The notes below the pieces were generated by a model that saw only the letters and a list, made by a program, of their open reading frames with translations, was not told the origin of the DNA and did not search any database. A DNA stretch of 6,238 nucleotides from Candidatus Zixiibacteriota bacterium. Its GTDB lineage: Bacteria; Zixibacteria; MSB-5A5; SM23-73-2. Made by a program: the position numbers and the translations under genes. The stretch is from NCBI GenBank assembly GCA_030615745.1, contig JAUWYR010000067.1, forward strand, positions 1-6,238. Reading direction: 5' to 3'. Below are positions 843 to 5,997 of this stretch, one piece after another (the first letter of the stretch is position 1; each line of letters begins with the position of its first letter).

Positions 843-3332
843 ATGAAAAAAAATGTCCTGATTATCGGTGTAATGATTTTTACTCTTATCATAGCATCTA
901 TGTCCTTTTCAGCGGAGTGGACTATTATGGTTTACTGTGACGCTGATAACAACCTTGACCTGGCAGGAGTAGAAGATTTAAACGAACTTGAGTATAGTGG
1001 CTCCACTGATTCGGTGAATATGATTTTTCTTTTGGACCGGTACGGCTGGAATGATACAAAACTTTATTATGTTCTCCATGACCCTGCGGGCAATCCGGGG
1101 GGAACGGATATGAATATTATATCACAGGATATAAGCTCAGATGCTCCCTGGCTTGCGAGTGAGGAAGATATGGGTAATCCTCAAACTTTACAGGATTTTG
1201 TGGTATGGACCATTCAAAACTATCCTGCTAATCATTACCTTCTATCTATCTGGGATCATGGTAGTGGAATCTTTAAAGAGGTGGGAATGGGGATAACCAA
1301 AGGAGAATGCTGGGATGACCACGGTGGTGTTTATGGCGAATACATTGATCTGGCAGAGCTCCGAGATGTGTTAGCTGCCGCATATATTGCCAACGGCAAT
1401 CAAAAGATAGATATTGTAGGTCATGATGTCTGTCTTTTGGGTCAGATTGAGACTTTTTACCAGATGAAAGATTATGTGAAAATTGGCATTGCCGCCGAGG
1501 AGTCAGAACCTTTTGACGGCTGGGAATATGGTCCACCCTTCTACGACCTGAAAAACAATCCTCTTATGTCGCCAGCTCGGTTGGCTCAAAAAATTGTGGA
1601 GTATTATTGCCTGCGCTATGGAACTTATAGCTATATAATTCAGGCCGCTATAGACCTTTCAACCCTTGAGAGCGATCTGATACCCCAATTAAACACCTTC
1701 TCTGAGCTACTTACATACTATATGTACAATTATCAGTCCGATATAGCCAGTGCTCGATCCAGTGCCGAGTATTACAACTGGGACTGCGGAAGAAATCCGG
1801 ACCTATATCACTTTGCCCAGCTAATCCATGCAGATAGCGATTTGCCTGATACACTCCGATCTTCTGCACAGGATTTAATGTCTTGCTATCCCAGAGTGGT
1901 GATAAGCGAATGCCATGGGGATTGGAGTCCAAACGCCCATGGGATGAGCATCTGGTTTCCGGATGATTTCTTAACCAATTACTGCAAAAACGATTATCTG
2001 ACTCTAATAGAATTTGCGCAAGAGGGCTGGGATGAATTTTTAGCTGAGTTTGACGAACCACAACAAGCCTATGACGGACCAGTATGGTATGTATCCACAA
2101 CAGGGGACGACACAACAGGCGATGGAAGCCCGATTAGGCCATTCAGGACAATTCAAAAAGGGATAAATACCGCAAGCAACAGTGATACAGTGCTGGTGAC
2201 TTTAGGGCATTATTACGAGAGGATAAACTTCGAAGGAAAAGCTATCTTAGTTGCCAGCAATTTTATCTTTGATAAGAGCTCTACTACTATTGATTCCACG
2301 ATCATAGATGCGGACACTCTGGTTTTAGGTGTAAGTGATACCGGTAGTGTAGTTACCTTCGTTTCTGGAGAGGATTCGACTTCTGTCATTCAAGGTTTTA
2401 TCATCCAAAATGGTATAGGGACGATAAGTGATACTTCGCGACTTGGCGGTGGAATCTTTTGCTACTCGTCCTCGCCAATTATTAGAGACAATATCATAAT
2501 TGTAAACTCCGCATCCTTCGGTGGTGGAATTTGCTGTAACTCTTCTTCCTCACCCCTAATCAGCAAAAATACCATAATCAGTAACTCCGCATCCTCCTCT
2601 GGCGGCGCGATCTCTTGTCATGAATCTTCACCTACGGTAAATAATAATATTATTACCATAAATTCTACCCAGAGCGGCGGCGGGATCTTCTGTGACAGAG
2701 ACTGTATGTCTTTAATCAACAACAATATAATAACTAAAAACTCTGCTTCCTCTATTGGTGGTGGAATCTTCTGCGACTGGAATGCCTCCCCAACAGTCAC
2801 TAACAACATCATCTCAAATAGCTTAGATGGCGAGGGAATATATTCCGGAGATGAAGCCTGGCCTGCTATCTCCTACAACGACGTCTGGAACAACGCTGAT
2901 GGGAATTTTTATGGTGGTCAACCAAGCGTTGGGGATACTACCTGGGGAACTAATTTCAATCAAACTCCCTGCGACAGCTTTTATAATATCATCCGTGACC
3001 CGATGTTCGCTGATACCATAAATTACGCTCTTCTTTGTAGCTCAGCCGCAATCGATGCAGGTGACCCATCCTATGAATTTCCAGATAGTGGGGGAAGAAG
3101 GATCGACATGGGGATCTTTGAGTATATTTATACTATGGGAGATGTAAAAAAAGATGATAAAATCAATCTGGGTGATGTGATCTATTTAGCTAACTATCTT
3201 TTGAAATCAGGCACACCCCCCTGTCCTTTTGGTTCAGGAGATGTTAACTGCGATGGTAAAGTTGAGTTAGTTGATGTTATCTATTTAGCTAATTATCTCT
3301 TAAAAGGAGGACCCAAGCCAGGCTGTTCTTAA
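843..3332 (+). CDS. Secreted clostripain-like (C11) cysteine peptidase with beta-helix and dockerin domains
   Basis: An 829-residue exported protein. The ATG at 843 follows GGAG (832-835) at 7 nt. Residues 1 to about 23 form a signal peptide (MKKN, hydrophobic core, SFSA). Residues about 25-403 are a C11 peptidase: WTIMVYCDADNNLD at the start, His139 in WDHGSG and Cys197 in HDVCLLG as the catalytic pair, and NAHGMSIWFP near the end. Asp195, two before the Cys, matches the S1-pocket Asp that gives known C11 enzymes Arg/Lys specificity. From about 414 (WYVSTTGDDTTGDGSP) a right-handed parallel beta-helix follows, with five GGGIFC-type coils at 535-665 and a closing IDAGDP...DMGIFEY segment. Residues 765-829 hold two dockerin-like calcium loops (Asp767-Asp778, Asp800-Asp811). 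The gene is monocistronic, ending at the terminator at 3410-3445. The substrate is unknown; the beta-helix may bind glycans and the dockerin may anchor the protein. Confidence 0.93.
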   Translation: MKKNVLIIGVMIFTLIIASMSFSAEWTIMVYCDADNNLDLAGVEDLNELEYSGSTDSVNMIFLLDRYGWNDTKLYYVLHDPAGNPGGTDMNIISQDISSDAPWLASEEDMGNPQTLQDFVVWTIQNYPANHYLLSIWDHGSGIFKEVGMGITKGECWDDHGGVYGEYIDLAELRDVLAAAYIANGNQKIDIVGHDVCLLGQIETFYQMKDYVKIGIAAEESEPFDGWEYGPPFYDLKNNPLMSPARLAQKIVEYYCLRYGTYSYIIQAAIDLSTLESDLIPQLNTFSELLTYYMYNYQSDIASARSSAEYYNWDCGRNPDLYHFAQLIHADSDLPDTLRSSAQDLMSCYPRVVISECHGDWSPNAHGMSIWFPDDFLTNYCKNDYLTLIEFAQEGWDEFLAEFDEPQQAYDGPVWYVSTTGDDTTGDGSPIRPFRTIQKGINTASNSDTVLVTLGHYYERINFEGKAILVASNFIFDKSSTTIDSTIIDADTLVLGVSDTGSVVTFVSGEDSTSVIQGFIIQNGIGTISDTSRLGGGIFCYSSSPIIRDNIIIVNSASFGGGICCNSSSSPLISKNTIISNSASSSGGAISCHESSPTVNNNIITINSTQSGGGIFCDRDCMSLINNNIITKNSASSIGGGIFCDWNASPTVTNNIISNSLDGEGIYSGDEAWPAISYNDVWNNADGNFYGGQPSVGDTTWGTNFNQTPCDSFYNIIRDPMFADTINYALLCSSAAIDAGDPSYEFPDSGGRRIDMGIFEYIYTMGDVKKDDKINLGDVIYLANYLLKSGTPPCPFGSGDVNCDGKVELVDVIYLANYLLKGGPKPGCS
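2445..2835 (+). repeat. Five in-frame beta-helix coil repeats (GGGIxC) in the peptidase
   Basis: Five coils of 25-27 residues each start with GG[GA]I.C and continue with a SSP.I..N.I..NSAS pattern, the usual form of stacked parallel beta-helix turns. One Cys stands at the same coil position each time: residues 540, 565, 592, 617 and 644. The repeats have diverged at the DNA level, so the array is old rather than freshly duplicated. Confidence 0.8.
3174..3307 (+). repeat. Duplicated dockerin half-repeat with a 99-bp offset
   Basis: The segments 3174-3206 and 3273-3305 both encode DVIYLANYLL and are still nearly identical at the DNA level. The offset is exactly 33 codons. Each is preceded by a DxxxDxxxxxxD calcium loop. 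The second loop (D-N-D-G) is canonical; the first has Lys and Asp at the N and G positions. Confidence 0.75.
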
Positions 3333-3473: not shown

Positions 3474-4127
3474 TTAAATTGATTTTTCTGCCAATCTTTT
3501 GCCCAAAAGAAAGGCTTTTTTCAAAACCTCTTTATCCTCTTTTACCTTTCCAATTTCAAAACTATCATGAGAATATAAAATCTTTTCGTAAAATTCTATA
3601 CCCACCCATTTGAAAAGCCCTTTTAACAAAGATAAAGCACAATCGAATCTCTGGCGTTTGCCAGCAACTAATATAATTATCCCTTTTCTTTTTCTATTGA
3701 ATTTGTAAATGCGACTCTTATCGAAATAATATTCCCCATCCTTTTCGAAGAATCCTTCGGATTTTCTTCTCAAAGGACGTATACAATTGCACCTGTCAAC
3801 AAAAAGCTTCATCTGAGCAGATACTGAATCGAAATATACCGGTGAGCCGAAAACAAAAAGGTCATAGGTCAAAACCTTTGGATATATCTTTTCCATATCG
3901 TCCTGATAAGAACAGATCACAGTGTCTGGGACCAATTCGCACGATTTGCAAGGAGTTATCTTCAAATCATCCAGATAAATAATCTCACCTTGACCCTTGA
4001 CCCTTGACCCTTGAGCCTTGCATCTTGAATCTTGAATCTCAGATTTCGCCCCTTCGATAACTTTTCTGATCAACAAATCCACATTCCCCCCCTTCACCGG
4101 GCTTCCATTTATCCCTAAGATTTTCAT
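3474..4127 (-). CDS. Flavodoxin-fold NAD(P)H-dependent FMN reductase / iron-sulfur flavoprotein relative
   Basis: A 217-residue cytoplasmic redox protein. GINGSPVKGGNVDLLI (residues 5-20) is the FMN-phosphate loop and first helix of this family. LFVFGSPVYFDSVSAQMKLFVDR (90-112) is its second signature, the flavin-binding loop. Between them, Cys60-x2-Cys63-x8-Cys72 followed by DDM recalls the Cys cluster of Isf-type iron-sulfur flavoproteins. The third Cys expected at 66 is Val, so a 4Fe-4S cluster is doubtful. Residues about 31-47 are coded by a heptanucleotide repeat and look like an insert between the first helix and the second strand. The ATG lies 20 nt after the stop of the nuclease gene, so the two are probably co-transcribed; no clear SD is seen. 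The exact electron donor and acceptor cannot be read from the sequence. Confidence 0.85.
   Translation of the reverse strand: MKILGINGSPVKGGNVDLLIRKVIEGAKSEIQDSRCKAQGSRVKGQGEIIYLDDLKITPCKSCELVPDTVICSYQDDMEKIYPKVLTYDLFVFGSPVYFDSVSAQMKLFVDRCNCIRPLRRKSEGFFEKDGEYYFDKSRIYKFNRKRKGIIILVAGKRQRFDCALSLLKGLFKWVGIEFYEKILYSHDSFEIGKVKEDKEVLKKAFLLGKRLAEKSI
3990..4038. repeat. Seven-copy heptanucleotide tandem repeat inside the flavoprotein gene
   Basis: On the plus strand: TTGACCC three times, then TTGAGCC, TTGCATC and TTGAATC twice, 49 bp with a strict 7-bp period. TTG is constant and the last four bases drift. It encodes the QDSRCKAQGSRVKGQG stretch on the minus strand. Seven is not a multiple of three, so losing or gaining one or two copies would shift the frame. 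Confidence 0.9.
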
Positions 4128-5248: not shown

Positions 5249-5731
5249 TTACAATTTATATCCTATCTTTCTTAAAAATTCCTTTCTCTTTTCTACATCC
5301 TTCTCCGTCTCTATCCCTTTAGAGGAAAAGCCATCGATAACTCCTAATACTCCTCTGCCCTGCTTTGTCTCACAGGTTATAACCTCAACTGGATTAGCAG
5401 TTGCACAGAATACAGAACAGACCTCAGGACAATCCTTAATCGCCTTTAAAACATTTATAGGAAAAGCATCCTTTATATATATTATAAAAAAATGTCCTGC
5501 CCCTATCTGGTATGCAGACTTTTCTGCTAATTTTTTTAAATCATCGGAGTTCCCTTCAGATCTGACCAAACAGGGACCAGATGCTTCGCAAAATGCTAAG
5601 CCAAATTTGATCTGAGGAACAGAGCCAACCAAGGCTTCATATAAATCCTCAGTTGTCTTTATAAAATGGGTCTGCCCTAAGATAACATTGGTCTCCTCTG
5701 GAACTTCGACTTTATATGTCTTGGTCTCCAT
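5249..5731 (-). CDS. Adenosine-specific kinase family protein (PF04008 / COG1839)
   Basis: A 160-residue cytoplasmic protein, the usual full length of this small family. The family is best known from archaea and thermophiles, where a member was described as phosphorylating adenosine. The conserved blocks are all present: NVILGQTHFIKTTEDLYEAL (15-34), KFGLAFCEASGP (42-53), IGAGHFFIIYIKDAFPINVL (76-95), FCATANPVEVI (108-118) and GRGVLGVIDG (125-134), with the end RKIGYKL. The start is certain: AAAGGAGG (5743-5736) lies 4 nt before the ATG. It is the first gene after the promoter at 5881-5853, and its leader is almost entirely a cloverleaf structure. The link to the downstream nuclease and flavoprotein is unexplained; nucleoside salvage from RNA or DNA breakdown is one possible theme. 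The family call is firm; the reaction rests on few characterised members. Confidence 0.92.
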   Translation of the reverse strand: METKTYKVEVPEETNVILGQTHFIKTTEDLYEALVGSVPQIKFGLAFCEASGPCLVRSEGNSDDLKKLAEKSAYQIGAGHFFIIYIKDAFPINVLKAIKDCPEVCSVFCATANPVEVITCETKQGRGVLGVIDGFSSKGIETEKDVEKRKEFLRKIGYKL

Positions 5732-5742
5732 AAAACCTCCTT

Positions 5743-5833
5743 TTGTAGATCGAGTATGTTCGAGCTTTAGCGAGGACTACTCGATAAATCCCAGATTTGT
5801 CAATTAGGTCTTGCGACCATAATTGACCTACAA
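5743..5833 (-). promoter_or_regulatory. 91-nt cloverleaf (four-way junction) in the kinase leader
   Basis: A 6-bp closing stem, TTGTAG (5743-5748) with CTACAA (5828-5833), encloses three hairpins with no unpaired base between them. Hairpin one is ATCGAGTA (5749-5756) with TACTCGAT (5778-5785), plus a partly paired inner stem. Hairpin two is AAATC (5786-5790) with GATTT (5794-5798). Hairpin three is 12 bp (5799-5810 with 5815-5827), with one bulged base at 5819 and, in the mRNA, a GCAA (GNRA) loop. The last arm overlaps the SD by one base. It may be a cis-acting RNA controlling translation, or a palindromic mobile repeat. It is not a tRNA. Confidence 0.65.
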
Positions 5834-5852
5834 TTTTCTTTCCCTCTTTCAA

Positions 5853-5881
5853 ATTATAGTATTTTTAATTTAAAATTTCAA
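5853..5881 (-). promoter_or_regulatory. Sigma-70-like promoter of the minus-strand operon
   Basis: Read on the minus strand, TTGAAA (5881-5876), a 17-bp spacer and a consensus TATAAT (5858-5853) form a near-ideal promoter. The start of transcription would be near 5846, about 13 nt before the cloverleaf and 115 nt before the kinase ATG. Confidence 0.7.
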
Positions 5882-5911
5882 AAAGAAAAAAGCAAATAAA
5901 AAATATCTTTT

Positions 5912-5934
5912 AAAAGACCAAAAGGGTCTTTTTT
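5912..5934. terminator. Terminator-like hairpin upstream of the operon promoter
   Basis: AAAAGACC (5912-5919) pairs with GGTCTTTT (5925-5932) around a 5-nt loop, with six T in a row at 5929-5934. It is weaker than the palindrome at 5947-5984 and could act as a second stop for readthrough from the outer-membrane protein gene. Confidence 0.5.
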
Positions 5935-5946
5935 ACAAAAATCAAA

Positions 5947-5984
5947 TAAAAAAGCCTCCCCCATTAATGGGGGAGGCTTTTTTA
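5947..5984. terminator. Perfect 38-bp palindromic terminator
   Basis: AAAAAAGCCTCCCCC and GGGGGAGGCTTTTTT are fully complementary around ATTAAT, and the T and A flanks make it a rho-independent terminator on both strands. It lies 13 nt beyond the stop of the right-edge gene and would end that transcript. Confidence 0.9.
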
Positions 5985-5997
5985 GACCTAAAAAATC

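Follow-up and report, generated by a model that had tools for sequence, protein, structure and literature searches.

The window analysed here is the whole of a 6,238 nt stretch of Candidatus Zixiibacteriota DNA, in which a strongly structured element at positions 5743–5833 precedes a minus-strand gene for an adenosine-specific kinase. The nearest named relatives of this kinase come from Zixibacteria. Elsewhere, the window carries the remnant of a Mutator/IS256-type transposase gene (1–471), open at the window (contig) end, and an inverted repeat of about 18 bp, TCCCTGGCCGGGCAGGCA / TGCCTGCCCGGCCAGGGA, noticed by eye at 205–222 and 522–540, sits inside and just after this remnant. Positions 843–3332 encode a fusion of a clostripain-family (C11) protease, a DUF1565 beta-helix-like region and a C-terminal dockerin type I domain, and a short tandem-like run, cttgacccttgaccctt...cttgaatcttgaatc, was seen by eye at 3990–4040 within a flavodoxin-like ORF (3474–4127, minus strand). 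The features of the kinase locus, with the parts of the element labelled according to our preferred reading, are:

5249–5731, minus strand: adenosine-specific kinase gene (PF04008, E 2.3e-76), the downstream neighbour of the repeat
5736–5742, minus strand: Shine-Dalgarno sequence AAGGAGG of the kinase gene, adjacent to the repeat but not part of it, and unpaired in the predicted fold
5743–5833, no strand assigned: the entire element, very probably a REPIN; two GTAG-tagged REP units arranged head to head, with TTGTAG/CTACAA as the closing stem, a reading based on its folds and on nine other dimers of the same architecture
5745–5785, plus strand: left REP unit; foot GTAG at 5745–5748, hairpin ATCGAGTA-T-GTTC...GGAC-TACTCGAT, a variant of the GTCGAG type
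5786–5797, no strand assigned: spacer, nearly all of a self-complementary 13-bp AAATCCCAGATTT stretch, forming a 5-bp hairpin in both folds
5798–5831, minus strand: right REP unit; foot GTAG at 5831–5828, hairpin GTCAATTA-T-GGTC-GCAA-GACC-TAATTGAC, a member of the GTAGGTCA set
5853–5881, minus strand: promoter-like TTGAAA-17-TATAAT with 11 of 12 consensus matches, upstream of the repeat and downstream of the terminator
5947–5984, minus strand: intrinsic terminator made of a stem of 17 pairs with a T run after it; it separates the kinase promoter from the minus-strand gene upstream

The initial annotation of this DNA described a gap-free cloverleaf of four helices, and folding bears this out. 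The minimum-energy structure of 5743–5833 on both strands consists of four helices that abut without any unpaired base at their junctions: a closing stem of 6 bp (TTGTAG/CTACAA), a first arm of 8 bp continued beyond a one-base bulge by an inner stem, a 5-bp spacer hairpin (AAATC/GATTT), and a second arm of 12 bp (8+4) with one bulged T. The GCAA loop that had been placed on the mRNA strand is indeed found on the minus (mRNA) strand, and the tandem G.A mismatches attributed to the plus strand lie in its GTTC-GA-GC-TTTA-GC-GA-GGAC stretch. Each arm contains a single bulged T and carries an unpaired GTAG at the 5′ foot of its hairpin, and the two arms represent different sub-types, with a divergent stem on the left. 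Both strands fold better than dinucleotide shuffles of the same sequence, the plus strand at −35.9 kcal/mol (z −5.97, equalled by none of 200 shuffles) and the minus strand at −30.7 kcal/mol (z −3.21, with 3 of 200 shuffles as good). The non-mRNA strand achieves the better fold through G-T pairs and fewer mismatches, which gave a first hint that the element is not a leader RNA.

The structure had also been said to fill the kinase leader from a transcription start near 5846 into the Shine-Dalgarno site. The first half of this placement stands, as the predicted promoter ends at 5853 on the minus strand, a position compatible with such a start, whereas at the other end the structure stops beside the Shine-Dalgarno site, which lies directly 3′ of the last helix and is excluded from the fold. 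Given the promoter match and the terminator upstream of it, the kinase mRNA is likely to carry the element at its beginning, as part of the 5′ leader. A repeat in this position should fold and yet leave the Shine-Dalgarno site free, so its influence on expression is probably minor. This copy may have some effect on the kinase, and its presence may be close to neutral.

What the element is becomes apparent from its relatives in the host genome (2.28 Mb in 74 contigs). Owing to the divergence of the stems, a BLAST search with the whole element recovered no second copy in this genome, only the element and some short fragments; judged by this search alone, the structure would have been mistaken for a single-copy one. 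The bare TTGTAG...CTACAA pattern was noisy (7 places against 14 in the reversed control), and two true dimers among its matches were spotted by eye. The grammar common to the dimers is GTAG plus a hairpin, a short spacer, and an inverted hairpin plus CTAC. Patterns for the single arms were far cleaner: GTAGGTCA...TGACA gave 30 matches against 2 in the reversed control, and the left-arm type, GTAGRTCGAGN{6,36}CTCGAY, gave 12 against 0. A covariance model built from the right-arm type, R1, found 44 units at E<=1 and 39 at E<=0.01, and recovered the right arm of the window copy at 5795–5837 (E 1.6e-5, this copy being among the training rows). Ten head-to-head dimers were identified by script, the window copy included, and the spacers of the others measure 8–18 bp. 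When the foot was left out of the search pattern, 11 hairpins were found, 10 of them preceded by GTAG and the remaining one by ATAG.

Covariation was computed on the stems of single units. In an alignment of 24 copies, 99% of the cells of the 8-bp stem are paired and 27 cells are changed on both sides, a result reached by none of 500 shuffles, and the alignment pairs poorly when slid. The units also avoid genes, with only 4 of 55 inside an ORF of at least 100 aa, compared with 70% of random positions, and two of these four look like false units. A covariance-model search had been proposed as the way to separate a regulatory RNA from a mobile repeat. The search with R1 returned many dispersed intergenic copies, and the leaders of homologous kinases lack the structure.

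The trinucleotide AGT stands at exactly −6 to −4 before GTAG in 8 of 54 units of the window genome. Judging from this flank, the conserved REP unit may extend outward beyond GTAG. The complement, ACT, contains a CT dinucleotide, and CT is the cleavage site reported for other TnpA-REPs (PMC8266576). The window copy has no AGT at this position, and the missing flank, together with the divergent left arm, suggests that it may be old and immobile.

The host genome encodes proteins of the kind associated with such repeats. Three of its genes exceed the PF01797 cut-off, and their products, which carry HxH and YIHxNP motifs, also exceed the 80-bit cut-off of NF047646 (NCBIfam REP_Tyr_transpos), with 145, 129 and 103 bits. 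The RAYT protein encoded on contig C65 matches E. coli TnpArep, the solved structure PDB 4er8, at 2e-16. Its gene lies between two GTAGGTCAAG-type REPs that start or end within about 10 bp of the ORF. The RAYT gene on contig C17, whose product is 44% identical to that of C65, lies between two GTAGGTCAGG-type REPs, one at most 10 bp from its stop and the other within about 60 bp of its start. The REPs on both sides of both genes belong to the family of the window element, and REPs directly flanking a RAYT gene constitute the REPtron arrangement (PMC3733652, PMC6006769). The third RAYT-like gene (L021, G000:C25:17668-17913) is the one scoring 103 bits, with the motifs HLH and YIHNNPL, and no GTAG REP was found beside it on C25.

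We conclude, with high confidence, that the sequence at 5743–5833 belongs to the REPINs, miniature non-autonomous mobile elements in which a short spacer separates two inverted GTAG-REP units. The palindromic mobile repeat with TTGTAG...CTACAA ends that the initial annotation had entertained as its rival reading is thereby identified as a head-to-head GTAG-REP dimer with RAYTs in the same genome.

The family reaches well beyond this genome. R1 matches occur in 10 of 10 other genomes of the same order, with 2 to 28 in each, and Y1 transposases occur in 56 of 59 relatives. The comparison includes a single, diverged genome of the same genus (G001), which has only two R1 matches, both on contigs other than its kinase contig. 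Its kinase leader carries a different palindrome, CGGGGTAGGCGTACCCCG, that is itself repeated. This CGGGGTA palindrome (G001:C16:2608-2625) is one copy of a second palindromic family, CGGGGTAN{2,6}TACCCCG, with 19 copies in the window genome (for example, G000:C66:19882-19898) and 21 in G001. The reversed control gave 0 matches and G006 has no copy; the pattern as used contains no GTAG foot. Upstream of the kinase gene, three genomes contain REPs of the GTAGTTGC type, yet another family (G006:C67:1389-1440, G002:C7:8697-8823 and G008:C75:3063-3084). This GTAG REP family (GTAGTTGCYYRATTCATYRRGC) differs from that of the window and has many copies in the f2 family.

These neighbours bear on the question of whether the REPIN has since been co-opted as a 5′-leader element that alters the stability or translation of the kinase mRNA. 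Its probable position in the leader, directly beside the Shine-Dalgarno site, would suit such a role, as would the presence of other repeat families in the same leader of relatives, and reports on REPs elsewhere describe effects on mRNA stability, termination and translation (PMC6006769). A literature search pairing REPs with ribosome stalling found nothing. Against co-option, the element itself is not conserved, and repeats of this kind are not rare upstream of genes: by a rough estimate that relies on crude ORF calls and leaves out the leaders of two relatives, they occupy 2–4% of 200-bp upstream stretches in G001 and the window genome and 11–13% in G002 and G006. Measured against this background, the recurrent occupancy of the kinase leader is only mildly notable and weakly suggestive, and the cases in the f2 family may share one origin by descent within one family. 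We therefore regard co-option as unlikely. The broader proposal, in which unrelated families of palindromic repeats in Zixibacteria preferentially land in the kinase leader and are kept there because their hairpins tune the kinase mRNA, appears somewhat more doubtful again.

A further reading is that of a cis-regulatory, riboswitch-like cloverleaf of the kinase gene that senses adenosine, AMP or ATP, the regulatory PF04008 leader first suggested for this sequence. The location between a good promoter match and the Shine-Dalgarno site and the compact multi-helix fold with its GCAA loop on the mRNA strand are features that such an RNA could be expected to have. However, kinase homologues down to about 70% identity, including those of the same phylum that are 72–82% identical, have leaders without such structure, and both model matches in the same-genus genome lie away from its kinase contig. 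Related units occupy many unrelated intergenic sites of the host genome, and of the two strands it is the non-mRNA strand whose fold stands out more clearly from chance. Rfam has no match overlapping 5743–5833 even at E 5; its matches in the window are all sub-threshold and fall on other hairpins, mainly the terminators at 5900–5990. The comparison of homologous leaders and the existence of the repeat family lead us to reject this candidate, and we consider it highly improbable that the kinase gene is controlled in this way. A transcription terminator or attenuator unrelated to the repeats, which the strong hairpins in the leader might bring to mind, has a negligible probability, since no arm is followed by a T run, a terminator scan was empty here and the real terminators lie at 5947–5984.

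The REPIN reading suggests a route by which the element could have arrived. RAYTs act on REP hairpins in single-stranded DNA by cutting and joining them, and the determinants are GTAG and hairpin irregularities or loop bases (PMC8266576); the REPIN is considered to be the unit that replicates (PMC3116915). In single-stranded DNA, each REP unit of the window copy would form a hairpin whose 5′ foot is GTAG; such a hairpin would be the substrate form for cutting and joining by RAYT/TnpA-REP enzymes such as the three that the genome encodes. An event of this kind may have placed the copy between the kinase promoter and the Shine-Dalgarno site, and the inserted copy would now be transcribed within the 5′ leader of the kinase.

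The element resembles systems described in other bacteria. Like the REPINs of Pseudomonas fluorescens SBW25 (Bertels and Rainey 2011, PMC3116915), it is an inverted REP pair around a short spacer capable of pairing, and its family is intergenic and dispersed, with compensatory changes and matching RAYT genes in the genome. It differs from them in being far less numerous, with about ten recognizable dimers and roughly 50 units, in the different sub-types of the two arms of the window copy, in belonging to another phylum, and in that its mobilization is a deduction. It also resembles the GTAG REP super-family (Di Nocera et al. 2013, PMC3733652), in which a GTAG foot stands directly at a stem of 6–13 bp, sub-families arise by compensatory stem changes, and head-to-head (HH) heterodimers have spacers with complementary ends; the comparison with the 24 families of that study covers their architecture. 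Here, in contrast, the host belongs to Zixibacteria and the window copy probably occupies a 5′ leader, while the usual reported location of REPs is downstream of genes (PMC3733652). The E. coli TnpA-REP system (PMC8266576; PDB 4er8) shares the RAYT with HuH and Tyr motifs, and its REPs share the GTAG, the irregular stem and the single-stranded hairpin substrate, the last of these being a prediction in our case. Unlike in E. coli, the stem irregularity is just one bulged T, and one of the arm types forms a perfect palindrome.

A GTAG REP/REPIN system with its RAYT is, thus, of a known kind, and this one is ordinary apart from the phylum of its host; a literature search of incomplete coverage found no paper pairing Zixibacteria with REPs or REPINs. 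Our analysis removes a candidate riboswitch and extends the REPIN/RAYT partnership to Zixibacteria. The multi-sub-type repeat populations and REP-flanked RAYTs across an entire order could be useful for comparative work on the persistence of domesticated transposases and of their repeats.
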